In this document: positions 2,321 through 17,568 of the stretch, piece by piece | Numbering within the stretch: position 1 is the first letter of the stretch | How the letters are laid out: every line of letters starts with the position of its first letter | Source: a virus | DNA: 24,330 nt | IMG/VR virus record: IMGVR_UViG_3300024299_000057 | Span: 1-24,330 of that record | Direction: 5' to 3' (one strand) | Notes under the pieces: generated by a model | What the model saw: only the letters and a program-made list of their open reading frames with translations | What the model was told of the DNA's origin: nothing | Databases searched by the model: none | Made by a program: the position numbers and the translations under genes

Positions 2321-3184
2321 ATGAACAATAAATTATTACTTGCATCATTCGTTGCTACATCATTATCTGCTACTGCAGGTGTAACTATCAACGGTAACTA
2401 CGAAGGTACATTTACTGACGGTAATCCAGGTGCATCTACATATGCACAAGACTTGGATTTAACATTAAAAGGAACAGTTGCTGACGGTACATCGGTAACA
2501 GCCACGTTTGAGAATTTAACAGGTGGTTCAACAGTAACTTCTACACAAGTGTTCATTGAAACGCAGGTTGAAGGACTTAATTTTAAAGGTGGTAACTACA
2601 AATCACAAAATGGTACAGGCTTAATGCAAAAGAAGAGTGCAGTAATTAATCAATTTGAATTAGGTACAGACGTAGCAGGTTTTGGTGTATCTGTTGCACA
2701 AACTTCAGGTGACGGTAATGCTACTGGTGATGTGTCTGGTTCAGTTGCTGGTATTGATGTTACTATTCAAAATGTTACAAACGATTCACGTTACGTATCT
2801 GCTTCAACTAGTATTTCCGGTTTAGATATTAATGTTGAGACCCAGGAAACTGCTACAGGTACTACTAACACAGGTGCTTCTATTGCGACTACTATTGCTG
2901 GTATGACAGTAACAGGTGTTATCATCGAAGTTGAAGATACTACAGGTATTACACAAAACGACGGTATTTTAGGCGACATTAGCGATGCTTCTAACGGTAA
3001 AACAATTACGGGTGTAGTTGCTTCAACTGACACTGTACTAGGTACAGTTACTGGTAAGTACATTGATAAGAACGATACTACTACATACGTTGGTAAGTTA
3101 CAGCGTGGTGTTATGGAGTACGGTTACACTAAGACAGAAAACACAGATGGTGTGTTTGATGCGGTGCTTTCAGTTTCTTTCTAA
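2321..3184 (+). CDS. Outer-membrane beta-barrel (porin-like) protein
   Basis: The 287-residue protein begins with a clear signal peptide (MNNKLLLASFVATSLSATA, cleavage near residue 19). It continues with alternating hydrophobic and polar short strands rich in Gly, Thr, Ser and Val, starting VTINGNYEG, as in Gram-negative porins. It ends in VLSVSF, with the terminal Phe typical of outer-membrane proteins assembled by the BAM complex. The length is shorter than a typical 16-strand porin (about 350 residues), so fewer strands are likely. AAGGA at 2307-2311 gives a good start. A TATAAATA late motif lies upstream and a strong terminator follows, so it is a single-gene unit on the plus strand among minus-strand genes, as for an acquired moron-type gene. 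Possible roles (inference): altering permeability, replacing or masking a receptor, or serving as a decoy. It could alternatively be a barrel of unknown function. Confidence 0.8.
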   Translation: MNNKLLLASFVATSLSATAGVTINGNYEGTFTDGNPGASTYAQDLDLTLKGTVADGTSVTATFENLTGGSTVTSTQVFIETQVEGLNFKGGNYKSQNGTGLMQKKSAVINQFELGTDVAGFGVSVAQTSGDGNATGDVSGSVAGIDVTIQNVTNDSRYVSASTSISGLDINVETQETATGTTNTGASIATTIAGMTVTGVIIEVEDTTGITQNDGILGDISDASNGKTITGVVASTDTVLGTVTGKYIDKNDTTTYVGKLQRGVMEYGYTKTENTDGVFDAVLSVSF

Positions 3185-3243: not shown

Positions 3244-3576
3244 TTATCTTGAATAATATTTTCCAATCTCGTTAAACCTATTATTGTATTTTCGTTCTGT
3301 TTGGTTAAGTCGTTGTTTGATTTGCATAGTATTCATGCGACTATTAATTTCCGAATCTCTATATGTATTCACGGATTTTACTTTGTTTTTGAAGTCATTA
3401 ATCGAACTGCTGACGCCAAAATCTACACAACAACCTAAATCTTTATCACAACATGCTTCTAATATTAGTAAGTCGTCGTGTAGTGTTAAATCCATTACTG
3501 GAAATCCTTTATTGGCGTCGATTTCTGCGTTAGCAATCATAGGCACGAATAGTAGCGTTAGTAGTTTTTTGTACAT
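3244..3576 (-). CDS. Small secreted Cys-rich protein
   Basis: This 110-residue protein starts with a signal peptide (MYKKLLTLLFVPMIANA, probable cleavage at residue 17). The mature part contains two Cys-Cys pairs, EACC and GCCVDFG (about residues 42-51), that could form disulfides in the periplasm or bind metal. The C-terminal half is polar and predicted helical, with many Asn, Arg, Lys and Gln. A GGGGGAG ribosome binding site lies 12 bases before the ATG, slightly far. It ends against the bidirectional terminator and is convergent with the barrel gene. I do not recognise the family. Its export signal, and position among other exported proteins, suggest an envelope role. Confidence 0.65.
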   Translation of the reverse strand: MYKKLLTLLFVPMIANAEIDANKGFPVMDLTLHDDLLILEACCDKDLGCCVDFGVSSSINDFKNKVKSVNTYRDSEINSRMNTMQIKQRLNQTERKYNNRFNEIGKYYSR

Positions 3577-9767: not shown

Positions 9768-12700
9768 TTAAAATTTATATTCAAATGTAACATTAAACGA
9801 ATGGTTGCCATTTCCATCAGCAATTACATCTGTGTTTAATGACGTATCTTCATCTTCTTTTCTAAAATAATATGTATGACTAGCACCTACAAATGGTACG
9901 GTACTTGTTCCATAATTATTAGATGCAGTATTATAATGCATGATGCCATTTGAATCAACACTATTTGGAATATATAAATCAATTCTACTATTATTTATTA
10001 CCTTTGGTTTAACACCTGCATAAAAAGTGAAGTCATCTAAAGTAAATCCACTAAGAGCATAAGCGGAAAGTGCATCGTCGATGTTAACAACAAGACCTTT
10101 TTTAATATCTGTTTTAGTATTCATAACACCTACCTGTGCCCATAAGTTATCATCCTTCCAAGTGATACTGGTATCAATAGTAGTAGCACCCGTAACGTCT
10201 CCCCAAACACCATACATACTTAACCACGGACTATCTTTGGTTTTACTGTACGTAACATTTAAATCCAAATCATTATTAAGATTATGTGTGTATCCAAGTA
10301 CATACGTATCTTCGTTGTCTGTGCCAACAGTAAAATTCATATAATCACTTGTGCTAATATTTGCTTGTTTAACCGCCCAAGATTGTCCACGTTTATGTCT
10401 AAGTTGTTCGATAGACCCAACTGTGTTATTAACCATAGAACTTAAATCTACGTTAAAGTCTCTGTCAAAATCATCAATAGCACTTACTGAACTTACATCC
10501 GCATCAACGCCATCTGCTGAAATACTACCACTAATACTAGCAGAGTTGCCAGTGCGTCCTGTTGTACTAATACTCAATGAGCCTATTGGCTGTGTTGCTT
10601 TGTCTAAGTCCATAAGTCCTTGACCGTGTGTGGTGACACTGTAGTTTGTTAGGTTCTTGTTAGCAGTTTGTAATAACACCTGTGCAATGTTCTTACCCTT
10701 CATATAAGGCCACATTTGGTGTACGATAGATACACCAGCAGTTACAGCAGGTGCGGCTTGTGAAGTACCGGACATATTAGTATAGCCACCACCGTTCTGT
10801 GTACTTTTGATATTAGTACCGGGTGCTAGAATGTAAAAATCACTGGTTTTATATGCATCATTACATTGAGCAGTGTAATCTTTACATACATGACCAGACT
10901 TAGCACCGTCGATGGTTTGTGTGCTCGTGTTCCAATTACCTGCTACAAGCATTCTGCCATCTAGTTCTAAGTTACCACTAGCATCAACCGCAGTTGCCAT
11001 AGTAGCAGGATTCTGTACATATCCTGCATCAGTGTTACCCGCAGAAACAACAAGTACCAGTTCGGCTGGAATAACATCTTTCCATGAACTAACCGTTTCT
11101 AAATTGTAATAATTGCTACCACCGTACACAGCATGATTGTTAGTGAACACACCATTGCCGTTGTCTGTCATTGCACTTTTATATGATGAACTGTAATTAG
11201 TGTTAGCACTAAGATTAGCAACTACAATATCATCATATTGTTTTGCCCAATTAAGCGCCTGTTTGGCGGCACTTAAACTAATACCATTTGCTTCGCCAAT
11301 CTTGGCAATTGCTAACTGTGTGTCGTACGCAACACCGTGGATACCTGTTCCATCTTTGTTAGCAGATACAATACCTGCAACGTGTGTTCCGTGTCCATTT
11401 TCATCTTCGTAAGGAGTATTGTATCCAGCATCCCACTTGTACTTAATTTTTCCTGCGAACTCTGAGTGGTCTTGGTCAATGCCTGTGTCCATAATAAGTG
11501 CAGTAGAACCCTTACCTGTCCAACCCCTTGCGTAAGCATGATTTGCATAAGTTACTAATGTTGAACCATTCTCTGCTTCCGATGTATTGTATGAGGCAGG
11601 GTCGTTATTAACACCTACTGTTGCTGTTCCTAGATTGGCATCGTTGTAGTACGCAGAGGCATCATAATTTGTCTTGTTATGATTTGGGTTTCTTATAATA
11701 TGTGTGTACGAACCATTAGATGAACTGTCTGTTGGAGCAGTAGGATTACCAATAAATGGAACATTAGAATTGGTTTTGATTGCGGTCATTGATAGTTCTT
11801 GTGACCCGTCGGCGAATGTTTTATAAAGATATACTTTAGTCGGACTACTATTAGTGGTAACTGTTCCAACTAATGCTTCTGTTACTGTTCCATCAGTATA
11901 GGTTGTCTTAGTGTATTCGTCCTTTTCTGTCGTAGTGTATGTATTCTTGTACCACTTAAAGTACGTTGTAGTCATCATCCCATAACTCCCGTCGGGAAGA
12001 GTAGTATTACTGTCGACCCCCGCTGAGTTGAATTCCGATGTTAACGCACCTTCGGTTTGTGATGTAGATTCGTTTTTGTAAATTGTTTCTGTGCTAACAA
12101 CGTTGGCAGTAACTACAGTATTAGTTAGTTCTTCTCTAGTAGCAGTTGTTACACTATTTGCTACACTGTCAGAAGTGCTAGTATTAATAACAGCGGTTGT
12201 TGTGGTGTTATCTGTCCATAATGTAGTACGAGTAGTTGTTACAACCGATGTTGTTGTAACAGGTGTTGATGTTGTATCTGTGTAAACCTTATATGTCTTT
12301 GTTACTGTGCTTCCATTGGCATCTGTGCTTGTTCTATCTTCTGTTACGTTGGTTGTATTAGTTACAGCAGTTCCATTTGCGGTGCTTGTACTCGTACTGT
12401 CACTATCACTTGTGCTTTTTACATTAGCAGTAACTACTGTATTGGTTAGTTCTTCTCTAGTAGTAGTTGTTACACTATTTGCTACGTTACTTGACGTACT
12501 TGTACTAACCACTTCATTGGTAGTCGAATCGTCGCTGTACGTGGTGGTTCTAGTTGTAGTTACAGTAGTGGTTGTGGTTAATGGTGTTGTAGTGGTGTCA
12601 GTGTAAACCTTATATGTCTTTGTTACAGTGCTACCATTACTGTCTGTGCTAGTTCTATCTTCTGTTACGTTGGTTGTATTAGTTACAGCAGTTCCATTTG

Positions 12701-13085
12701 ATGTTGATGAACTACTTGTTTCCGCATCAGAAGTTGATACCACAGTCGGTGAACTTGAGATACTAGAAGTACATTGTTCGTTACGGTTTTCGGTGTCTGT
12801 TCTAATCAATCCACCTTTGATTCCAGTTTTTACGCCATTGACATTCTTTTCCCACCATACACTACGACTATAAACATCAACAGTACAGTTTGTACTTGAT
12901 GTTACTCCTTGGCTTGTTCGTACCCATGTGCCGTATACACCGTTTGTCCATGTGATTACATCCTCTTGTACGGGTGGAGTTGGTTGCACATTGCCACCTC
13001 CACCACCACCACCGCCACAACCTGTCATGAATGCAATTGATGCTGTGATTAGAATTGTTCTGATTGACTTCCCTAAAGTAATCAT
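9768..13085 (-). CDS. Subtilisin-family (S8) surface protease lipoprotein with autotransporter-like C-terminus
   Basis: This 1105-residue protein starts with a lipoprotein signal (hydrophobic stretch, MTGC, lipidated C23) followed by eight consecutive Gly residues. Residues 103-345 are Thr/Ser-rich and hold a 107-residue tandem duplication. The S8 domain spans about 510-835. Its catalytic residues are Asp in IMDTGID (D533), His in NGHGTHVAG (H568), oxyanion Asn in SAGN (N684) and Ser in MSGTSQAAPA (S775). All are intact. The last 260 residues show alternating strands and end FNVTFEYKF, with the terminal aromatic of outer-membrane barrels, so the domain order resembles S8 autotransporters such as SphB1 and NalP. 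It would then be a surface-anchored protease. Its promoter looks host-type. Such a gene in a T4-like phage is unusual, and proteolysis of surface proteins or receptors is a reasonable inference. The barrel could be incomplete. Confidence 0.88.
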   Translation of the reverse strand: MITLGKSIRTILITASIAFMTGCGGGGGGGGNVQPTPPVQEDVITWTNGVYGTWVRTSQGVTSSTNCTVDVYSRSVWWEKNVNGVKTGIKGGLIRTDTENRNEQCTSSISSSPTVVSTSDAETSSSSTSNGTAVTNTTNVTEDRTSTDSNGSTVTKTYKVYTDTTTTPLTTTTTVTTTRTTTYSDDSTTNEVVSTSTSSNVANSVTTTTREELTNTVVTANVKSTSDSDSTSTSTANGTAVTNTTNVTEDRTSTDANGSTVTKTYKVYTDTTSTPVTTTSVVTTTRTTLWTDNTTTTAVINTSTSDSVANSVTTATREELTNTVVTANVVSTETIYKNESTSQTEGALTSEFNSAGVDSNTTLPDGSYGMMTTTYFKWYKNTYTTTEKDEYTKTTYTDGTVTEALVGTVTTNSSPTKVYLYKTFADGSQELSMTAIKTNSNVPFIGNPTAPTDSSSNGSYTHIIRNPNHNKTNYDASAYYNDANLGTATVGVNNDPASYNTSEAENGSTLVTYANHAYARGWTGKGSTALIMDTGIDQDHSEFAGKIKYKWDAGYNTPYEDENGHGTHVAGIVSANKDGTGIHGVAYDTQLAIAKIGEANGISLSAAKQALNWAKQYDDIVVANLSANTNYSSSYKSAMTDNGNGVFTNNHAVYGGSNYYNLETVSSWKDVIPAELVLVVSAGNTDAGYVQNPATMATAVDASGNLELDGRMLVAGNWNTSTQTIDGAKSGHVCKDYTAQCNDAYKTSDFYILAPGTNIKSTQNGGGYTNMSGTSQAAPAVTAGVSIVHQMWPYMKGKNIAQVLLQTANKNLTNYSVTTHGQGLMDLDKATQPIGSLSISTTGRTGNSASISGSISADGVDADVSSVSAIDDFDRDFNVDLSSMVNNTVGSIEQLRHKRGQSWAVKQANISTSDYMNFTVGTDNEDTYVLGYTHNLNNDLDLNVTYSKTKDSPWLSMYGVWGDVTGATTIDTSITWKDDNLWAQVGVMNTKTDIKKGLVVNIDDALSAYALSGFTLDDFTFYAGVKPKVINNSRIDLYIPNSVDSNGIMHYNTASNNYGTSTVPFVGASHTYYFRKEDEDTSLNTDVIADGNGNHSFNVTFEYKF
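12093..12698 (-). repeat. Tandem duplication (321-bp period) in the protease gene
   Basis: Residues 130-236 (12698-12378) and 237-about 331 (12377-12093) are near-copies with a period of 107 residues, e.g. NGTAVTNTTNVTEDRTSTD in both and VTKTYKVYTDTT in both. The DNA is also highly similar, so the duplication looks recent. It lengthens the Thr/Ser-rich stalk in front of the S8 domain and could vary by slippage or recombination. Confidence 0.9.
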
Positions 13086-13116: not shown

Positions 13117-13145
13117 ATTATAACCTAAATGATTATTTAGGTCAA
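13117..13145 (-). promoter_or_regulatory. Near-consensus sigma70-type promoter for the protease
   Basis: On the minus strand TTGACC (13140-13145) is followed, after exactly 17 bases, by TATAAT (13117-13122). This is five of six at -35 and a perfect -10 with ideal spacing, located 32 bases before the ATG of the protease gene. A GGGAG ribosome binding site lies close to the ATG. Host RNA polymerase should be able to use it without phage factors, as expected for early or constitutive expression. Confidence 0.85.
13123..13142. promoter_or_regulatory. Operator-like palindrome inside the protease promoter
   Basis: ACCTAAAT (13123-13130) and ATTTAGGT (13135-13142) form a perfect 8-bp inverted repeat separated by 4 bases. 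It fills the spacer and overlaps the -35 hexamer, the position of a repressor operator. The binding protein is unknown. Confidence 0.65.
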
Positions 13146-15349: not shown

Positions 15350-16537
15350 CTAACAATTGTCCATGTAAACTTTTAATTTTGGTAATGGATTTGATTGTTT
15401 GCGGATTTCGTCTAGTTTGTTTGAAAAAGCAGATACTGCCAAAAAATCAATCGTTGGTTCACATTTGATGTGTGATATGATAATGTTTTTTAAATTGATG
15501 GGCAAGTTGATAGTTTCGTAGTTTTTTATAACTTCATCTTTGTAATCTGATGGTAGATTGCGAATGTCTAATTCCGGTGGGTAGATACATAAGTTATAAT
15601 CAAAATTATCTTCGTGTATTCCCTGCGCCATCAGCCAATTATGTAACACATTGATGTTGGCAACGTTATAAATGTTAATGACAGTGTTTATCCTTAATTC
15701 CCAATTGTGTTTTTTGGATTCATTAATATAAAACATCAAATTATCTTCAATCACATCCCATGTACTTCCGTGCCTAAAGTAATCATTCTCTTTATCATAT
15801 GCATCTATACTAACAATTAAATGTAATTTTTTAATATCCTTCCACATTTCCAATGTTTCATCAGATGGTAGAATCATTCCGTTAGTATAGTACTGTAATA
15901 CTTTGTTCTTCTTATTTGCATCATTGTTCACCAACTCTGTTAGTTCGTTATTCTGCTTCATGTAAAACGGTTCACCACCGTACATAGTAATGAAATCCAC
16001 ATTATTGAAATCGAATCCAAATTCATCGAGTTTTGAGTTTTGTAGTGGGTATGGGTTAATGCCCAATTTCTCTTCATCTTTACGCCATTTTGTACTTAAT
16101 AAACTATAGCACCCACGGCACGCCAAATTGCACGTATTGGATGCATGTAATGCTACCCATTTTATATTTGGTACCAAATTTTTAAATATGTCTACCCACT
16201 CTTCATCTTCGACAGGTAGTCGGTCTATGTACCCTTCTTTCCATGGTAGAACATTATCGTTGTGAATTAATGAATGGAACCAATTATTCATAAATGTACG
16301 CAAACTTTGTCCATCGTTGACTGTATCCTCGTGATAGCATTTCTCGCACCCAGTGACACATTGTCCATTTTCCATTCGTTTCCTAACATTCTGCATCTTT
16401 TCAGAGTTGAAAATCTCTTTTGGTGTGTTATTATTAAGGTTACCAATCGGAATAGATTTTCTTGAACAAAGATGTACGTCTTTATTTGGTTTAATATGCA
16501 TGTGCACCCATGGCAAAACACAGTACGTCTTATTCAA
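15350..16537 (-). CDS. Twitch-domain radical SAM protein, TTG start
   Basis: This 395-residue protein has the N-terminal twitch pattern first: YCVLPWVHMHIKPNKDVHLC (C6, C24), then CVTGCEKC (C60, C64, C67), expected to hold an auxiliary Fe-S cluster. The radical SAM motif follows: CNLACRGC (C136, C140, C143) and GGEP (187-190). The start is TTG at 16537, supported by AGAGGAG at 16546-16552, 8 bases upstream. The TTG overlaps the stop of the preceding radical SAM gene (TTGA). This strongly suggests that the two enzymes are made together. Its substrate is unknown. Twitch-type radical SAM proteins of this order are known in marine phages by name but not, to my knowledge, by reaction. Confidence 0.9.
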   Translation of the reverse strand: MNKTYCVLPWVHMHIKPNKDVHLCSRKSIPIGNLNNNTPKEIFNSEKMQNVRKRMENGQCVTGCEKCYHEDTVNDGQSLRTFMNNWFHSLIHNDNVLPWKEGYIDRLPVEDEEWVDIFKNLVPNIKWVALHASNTCNLACRGCYSLLSTKWRKDEEKLGINPYPLQNSKLDEFGFDFNNVDFITMYGGEPFYMKQNNELTELVNNDANKKNKVLQYYTNGMILPSDETLEMWKDIKKLHLIVSIDAYDKENDYFRHGSTWDVIEDNLMFYINESKKHNWELRINTVINIYNVANINVLHNWLMAQGIHEDNFDYNLCIYPPELDIRNLPSDYKDEVIKNYETINLPINLKNIIISHIKCEPTIDFLAVSAFSNKLDEIRKQSNPLPKLKVYMDNC

Positions 16538-17568
16538 AAGAATAACTCCTCTAACATTAATGGATTATTGATAACTTGTTGTATATTTGTATTATGTGAA
16601 TTAGGTCTGCACGCAGGGCATTTGGAAATATCAAACTCGTTGTATATTTTCGTATGTTCGCTGTTGCACCATTTTTCCTGCCAATCTTCTGTTATCCAAC
16701 TACCGATTGATAAGTCTTTGTTCCCCCTATTTTCACAGCACAGGTATATATATCCATCCGCACAAAATATTGGCAAGAGATACAGTGCGTGACATTTCGA
16801 ATAACACCGAGTGTTCATCGCATCACGTTGTGTCGCCCTGAAGTTGATATTAAAGATTCCCCCTAATTTCTCGATATACTTCATTAGTCCCTTTTCTATG
16901 ACAAACGCATCAGCCTTGCCTTTTTCTAGTACAGCAGAGCGAATATAAAGCATTCGTGATTTAGTTTCTTTAACGTATTCGAATAATTGCAATATGTTTT
17001 GCTTGTTAGCAGTTTCTTCTAGTACTAATGCTTTAATATCAACCTTTCCACCTGCAGATACAATACGTTTTATGTTATCTTTCACTTTTTCGAACTGCCC
17101 ATCCGTCTTTGGCATCCTTACGAGGTTGTACATATCATTATCTGCACTATCGATATCGACACCAATCCATTGCATTTTCTTTATGTATTCTGAACCAATA
17201 TTCAATAACTTATCTAACTTGGTGCCATTGGTGATTAGGGATGTTAGGAATCCTTTGTCGATACTGTATTTAATGAGTTGTTCATAGTTCTTAAACAACG
17301 TTGGCTCACCACCACCAACGAAAACAACAGATACCAACCCACCCTTCGCATTACTTAATGTCCAATTACTTAACTCATCTAATAGTTTAGTAAAATGTTC
17401 AAATTTCACACTTGATGGATTATCCTTTCTATATATCGCAGAACAGCAGTATATACAATCCTGATTACATGAATTTGTTAAATCAATTTCAACAGTTGGT
17501 GGGATAATTCTTGGATTGTTATTGTTTATAAACTCAGTCGCGTATAACGTATATAAATTCTTTTGCAA
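16534..17568 (-). CDS. Radical SAM protein with SPASM-like C-terminus, TTG start
   Basis: The 344-residue protein carries CNQDCIYC (C34, C38, C41) for the radical SAM 4Fe-4S cluster and VGGGEP near residue 85 for SAM binding. The C-terminal third is Cys-rich: CYSKC, IFCADGYIYLCCE, EKWC and KCPAC, which is a SPASM-like auxiliary-cluster domain. The frame starts with TTG at 17568, preceded by AAGGAA at 17577-17582, which settles the start. It is followed directly by the twitch radical SAM gene in a TTGA overlap. SPASM enzymes modify peptides, sugars or other cofactors through radical chemistry. The neighbouring DegT-like and SGNH genes point toward glycan or small-molecule chemistry, but this is only context. 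Confidence 0.9.
   Translation of the reverse strand: MQKNLYTLYATEFINNNNPRIIPPTVEIDLTNSCNQDCIYCCSAIYRKDNPSSVKFEHFTKLLDELSNWTLSNAKGGLVSVVFVGGGEPTLFKNYEQLIKYSIDKGFLTSLITNGTKLDKLLNIGSEYIKKMQWIGVDIDSADNDMYNLVRMPKTDGQFEKVKDNIKRIVSAGGKVDIKALVLEETANKQNILQLFEYVKETKSRMLYIRSAVLEKGKADAFVIEKGLMKYIEKLGGIFNINFRATQRDAMNTRCYSKCHALYLLPIFCADGYIYLCCENRGNKDLSIGSWITEDWQEKWCNSEHTKIYNEFDISKCPACRPNSHNTNIQQVINNPLMLEELFF
16546..16552 (-). promoter_or_regulatory. Strong ribosome binding site for a TTG start
   Basis: AGAGGAG lies 8 bases before the TTG at 16537 and decides the start of the twitch radical SAM gene. It lies inside the end of the upstream radical SAM gene, so translation is coupled. Confidence 0.7.

Follow-up and report, generated by a model that had tools for sequence, protein, structure and literature searches.

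The window analyzed here, the whole 24,330-nucleotide stretch of viral DNA, contains a minus-strand ORF with an ATG start that codes for a protein of 1105 residues (Table 1). The protein begins with MITLGKSIRTILITASIAFMTGC followed by GGGGGGGG; an N-terminal signal for Sec export, as in classical type Va autotransporters, leads into a lipobox, MTGC (..IAFMTGC), at Cys23 and then GGGG, placing a lipobox at the mature N terminus as in the SphB1/NalP-type lipidated subtilase autotransporters. A stalk of imperfect Thr/Ser-rich repeats, a Peptidase_S8 domain, a linker, and a predicted C-terminal beta-barrel follow. A preliminary description of this DNA had claimed a lipoprotein signal, a long Thr/Ser stalk, and a subtilisin domain with all four catalytic positions intact, and each of these is present. 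The protein belongs to peptidase family S8 (subtilases), with the Asp/His/Ser triad and oxyanion Asn in an S8 fold, and a Cys pair is also invariant in all 64 aligned family members. The stalk type varies, and relatives have other stalks, such as EARLAEE coil-like repeats, instead of Thr/Ser repeats.

Table 1. Features of the protease gene and its upstream region in the window, and copies in metagenome-assembled genomes (MAGs)
Feature	Position	Strand	Basis
Whole gene (1105 aa): signal, stalk, S8 protease, C-terminal barrel	9768..13085	-	sequence, S8 match, model
Signal peptide, residues 1-22	13020..13085	-	sequence; present in 57/58 relatives
Lipobox Cys23 then Gly run, residues 23-31	12993..13019	-	sequence; SPII-type in 38 relatives
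Thr/Ser-rich repeat stalk, approx. residues 120-345	12051..12728	-	sequence
Peptidase_S8 domain, residues 525-816	10638..11513	-	PF00082 E 1e-31
Catalytic Asp533	11487..11489	-	invariant 64/64
Catalytic His565	11391..11393	-	invariant 64/64
Oxyanion Asn684	11034..11036	-	invariant 64/64
Catalytic Ser775	10761..10763	-	invariant 64/64
Protease-barrel linker, residues 817-912, conserved D-x-x-x-R motif (D871, R875)	10350..10637	-	family alignment
Predicted ~12-strand outer-membrane-like beta-barrel, residues 913-1105, terminal Phe	9771..10349	-	model, Foldseek, strand pattern
Sigma-70 promoter TTGACC-17-TATAAT (11/12), ~60 nt upstream of ATG	13117..13145	-	motif score
Palindrome ACCTAAATaatcATTTAGGT filling promoter spacer, possible operator	13123..13142	.	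not conserved in sequence across family
MAG copies of phage protease	L094 1-10540; L095 1-17890		chromosomal setting, nested in phage tree

AlphaFold2 (64 homologues) models residues 476 to 1105 with a pLDDT of 91.5, and its S8 half resembles subtilisins in a Foldseek comparison (E 1e-19). Modeled alone, the C-terminal 263 residues (pLDDT 91.4) are predicted to form about 12 consecutive strands, within the 8 to 12 that the preliminary description had asked about. The barrel strands alternate between hydrophobic and polar residues far above shuffled strands (p < 2e-4), whereas strands from the S8 domain show no such alternation (p = 0.88). The C-terminal residue is F1105, and a terminal F is present in 46 of the 64 family members; the barrel that it closes is a prediction. 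In one subclade (L012, L055-L057, and L081-L092), a C-terminal extension of ~70 to 100 residues ending in ..KHGLVYDLETDKFVPI follows the barrel and would sit beyond its last strand.

Foldseek matches of the barrel are almost all to bacterial outer-membrane barrels (OmpT/Pla, porins, KdgM, and FapF), but are weak, with a best E of 3.6e-3, none at E <= 0.001, and TM scores mostly of 0.3 to 0.4; none of the Foldseek matches to the barrel is NalP-like. PF03797, the autotransporter translocator family, is matched at E<=0.1 by 0/64 family members in a search that recovered all five bacterial beta-domains used as positive controls. Profile comparison (hhalign) of the phage barrel with five bacterial PF03797 beta-domains gives a probability of 1%, and the same method links it to the propeller-fused barrels described below at 99.7% (E 8e-26), showing these two to be homologous. 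Membership in the PF03797 autotransporters is thus not borne out, and because neither search nor profile finds PF03797 homology, we describe the protein as working like a type Va autotransporter rather than as being one. The earlier label of "SphB1/NalP type" therefore stands as an analogy (a lipidated subtilase with a C-terminal barrel) and not as family membership.

Homology to the S8 autotransporters is found for the S8 part, which matches the NCBIfam model of EprS (2.4e-23), and Ssp is the best PDB sequence match of the phage protein; it does not extend to the barrel. The subtilisin-like autotransporters (SphB1, NalP, EprS, and Ssp; type Va group 15) are exported, with an S8 passenger preceding a C-terminal ~12-strand barrel, a layout that the phage protein is predicted to share. 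The phage protein differs from them in its Thr/Ser or coil stalk, its phage-borne location, a passenger that can be replaced by a propeller, and a barrel without PF03797 homology. SphB1 and NalP are both lipidated, and the lipid keeps the protease at the surface, where other surface proteins are its targets; for NalP, lipidation of this surface subtilase is needed for action on cell-surface proteins (PMC9289746, PMC9977779).

Export appears to be a constant feature of the family. All but one of the 58 relatives with an intact N terminus carry a signal peptide (38 of the lipoprotein, SPII, type and 19 of the SPase I type), compared to 7.5% of the other ORFs in the same loci under the same rule; the family tree implies about three changes of signal type, with export kept throughout. 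The protein is very probably exported and anchored in the envelope. Sigma-70 promoter scores of 11 or 12 are seen for 36% of family genes but only 6.3% of other ORFs, an enrichment of about six-fold, and scores below 10 are seen for 39% of family members, some through mis-called starts. The T4-late motif TATAAATA is absent upstream of the window gene and its phage relatives, although a match does precede one of the two MAG copies. The near-consensus sigma-70 promoter points to transcription by the host RNA polymerase, and expression is hence probably early. A role in lysis, as had been raised, is disfavored because the promoter is of the sigma-70 and not the T4-late type, and nothing points towards the virulence factor also proposed. 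Several family members have differing palindromes in the promoter spacer (ACCTAAATaatcATTTAGGT in the window and AGTAAGATGTCTTACT in the L010 upstream region), which are possible operators.

The designation of the phage as T4-like is supported, as the window encodes a T4-type B-family DNA polymerase (phrog_262, E 3.5e-191), a clamp-like protein, and a 5'-3' exonuclease. By polymerase, Phosso (47.5%) and Atu_ph07 (44.8%), both jumbo phages, come closest among cultured phages. PF07068 (gp23) capsid matches were not found in 15 contigs, in a search run without a positive control. In Atu_ph07 and in two jumbo phage contigs (G020:196631-202778 and G027:34716-38822), the polymerase gene is broken up into two or three separate ORFs, which suggests introns or other insertions.

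A profile scan recovers at least 118 relatives of the protease in viral contigs of up to 353 kb, near the same polymerase, answering the call for a scan of related phages for the same gene in the same place. Both the gene and the polymerase recur at ~100% on a second contig, from another metagenome. The polymerase is present in 9 of 15 contigs from the first scan and 16 of 21 in a second set, mostly at 55 to 71% identity and typically within about 10 to 30 kb of the protease gene; in two contigs the distance is about 75 kb. In the set tested, each of the seven contigs with a length of 196 kb or more has Terminase_6N, and gene-cluster comparison identifies shared neighbors (queuosine-type genes, a phosphoribosyltransferase, a virion-associated protein, and an exonuclease) that are kept on more distant contigs. 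Divergence of the protease protein tracks that of the polymerase (r 0.57, p 0.0002), and S8 divergence tracks barrel divergence (r 0.87). Together, the shared polymerase, Terminase_6N, neighbors, and correlated divergence from the polymerase indicate a resident phage gene. Far from being a stray bacterial gene unexpected in a lytic phage gene set, it represents a family that resides at a fixed locus in aquatic, T4-related jumbo phages. The gene is not essential, as related jumbo phage contigs lacking it exist.

An assembly chimera or a misplaced bacterial gene, the event by which the preliminary description proposed that it might fail, would fit the higher GC content of the ORF (about 0.40, versus 0.33) and the existence of S8 autotransporters in bacteria. 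However, independent contigs share the synteny in both identical (~100%) and diverged forms, the neighborhood is conserved on distant contigs, and only two related copies, both in MAGs and nested within the phage sequences, were found among the bacterial genomes searched. Chimerism and host contamination are refuted by the independent contigs, and we regard this explanation as almost certainly wrong.

Searches of a cultured-phage database return only S8-domain similarity (20 to 44%), and Phosso has no annotated protease in a 45-kb stretch around its polymerase. The phrog_3677 "protease" matches all 64 family members and is named by its S8 domain only. Two UniProt entries from uncultured Caudovirales also match: A0A6J5TBB6 matches the S8 and barrel model (TM 0.75), and A0A6J5L9S5, which bears the name of a repeat-domain protein, matches part of the structure (TM 0.46). 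In the open-access literature we found no description of the barrel, export, locus, or passenger exchange for any of these three, and no paper on phage autotransporters or on such a family.

In related phages, the family profile picks up a further set of proteins whose match is confined to the linker and barrel. These barrel proteins start with a lipobox of the poly-Gly kind, and FG-GAP propeller repeats (E down to 1e-15) stand where the protease would be. The propeller versions occupy the same slot, with the same flanking gene clusters at 60 to 88% identity, and two have perfect (12/12) sigma-70 promoters. No contig among those tested has two barrel copies, and in a 374-kb contig without a protease or barrel match the slot holds a propeller lipoprotein that has no barrel. 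Exchange of protease for propeller would suit a locus whose role is to act on a surface target that varies.

Bacterial copies are rare. A single-sequence scan of prokaryote genomes gave no match, and an alignment scan using conserved peptide patterns, which more distant bacterial copies could escape, found only two relatives with the full architecture among 84,980 prokaryote species genomes, together with three unrelated subtilases. Both relatives, which share 94% identity, are in MAGs titled Hylemonella; when 401 genomes from that bacterial family were searched, one of the two was recovered and no other. Their neighbors match and include amino-acid ABC transporter-like and other non-phage genes but no phage genes, a chromosomal setting that rules out these contigs being phage. 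They are nested with full support beside the phage copy L038, whose contig has the phage gene order. Given this nesting and the chromosomal setting, transfer of the protease gene from phage to bacterium is the simplest reading, and the Hylemonella copies are candidates for a co-opted surface protease.

We propose an autotransporter-like, early-type phage protease that is displayed on the infected cell and remodels its surface, most likely for superinfection exclusion, a reading to which we give an even chance. Host sigma-70 RNA polymerase would transcribe the gene from the incoming genome using the promoter found upstream, Sec would export the protein by its signal, the lipobox would be lipidated, and Bam would insert the predicted barrel in the outer membrane. 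The protease, with its conserved catalytic residues, would then stand on the cell exterior, anchored by both the lipid and the barrel; surface display by way of this barrel is likely. There it would cleave surface proteins of the infected cell and, in the outcome we prefer, receptors would be removed or masked such that related phages could not superinfect and the host surface would be remodeled. Blocking of superinfection is a plausible and favored role, but that it is the main benefit is a tentative view that we would put somewhat below even. PADLOC does not match the protease as a defense system.

The protease could instead face the periplasm, since its barrel lacks PF03797 homology and has only weak structural matches, none of them NalP-like; the barrel would then be a mere outer-membrane tether and the targets might be, for example, host defense or stress proteins. 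We consider this unlikely, as a predicted 12-strand barrel preceded by a passenger and a long stalk is an autotransporter layout, and different passengers on a common barrel are characteristic of surface display. That exchange also bears on a nutritional role, in which jumbo phages with long infections digest environmental protein to feed the infected cell: the S8 fold is of broad specificity, the protein appears to be surface anchored, and the settings suggested by contig type are aquatic and often nutrient poor, but a swap with a propeller lacking a known hydrolase motif misfits a purely digestive role, and no linked transporter genes recur beside the gene in phages, making feeding quite improbable. 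Equally doubtful is a late release factor that rids debris and the dying cell of receptors and so keeps progeny from being trapped, or that helps to disrupt the outer membrane. Its biochemistry would be that of receptor removal and the predicted surface location agrees, but the near-consensus sigma-70 promoter, the lack of TATAAATA upstream in the window or phage relatives, and the position of the gene among replication and nucleotide genes rather than lysis genes all speak against it.

Phage remodeling of the host outer surface is mainly attributed to small lipoproteins and O-antigen modifiers. It is possible, at a little under an even chance, that a separate autotransporter lineage arose in jumbo phages, its barrel unrelated in sequence to the bacterial PF03797 translocators, in a dedicated display locus driven by host sigma-70 and with either a protease or a propeller as passenger, and that the protease passed from a phage into at least one bacterial lineage of fresh water, possibly as protection. 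A widespread phage family whose surface-anchored protease is probably transcribed by the host polymerase as soon as infection begins would open surface shaving to testing as a means of exclusion. The family also suggests that an outer-membrane secretion barrel arose outside the bacterial autotransporter family, and the bacterial copies would be a test case for whether such genes protect hosts. The superinfection-exclusion products Cor, Imm, and Sp likewise work at the host envelope and prevent a second phage from infecting, but block the receptor or DNA entry, and none is described as a protease in the passages of the source that deal with them (PMC9311878). T4-like aquatic phages also encode another outer-membrane secretion component, the CsgGF curli pore of pelagimyophage and methylophage (PMC7029224, PMC9004378), but its proteins are unrelated to the phage protease and no protease is found there.

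The window codes for other putative envelope proteins. A porin-like ORF of 287 residues (window 2321-3184, plus strand) has a signal peptide and a C-terminal SF and lacks Pfam or PHROG matches; the only TATAAATA in the window (5 expected by chance) is 52 nt upstream of it, suggesting that it may be a late gene. The ORFs beside it (3-515 and 3244-3576, both minus strand) have apparent signal peptides, and the phage may thus export several envelope proteins. There are also three radical SAM genes (555-2150, 15350-16537, and 16534-17568 on the minus strand), one of which matches N_Twi_rSAM (3.6e-76), and one resembles prokaryotic viperin, below the cut-off (PADLOC 5e-24).
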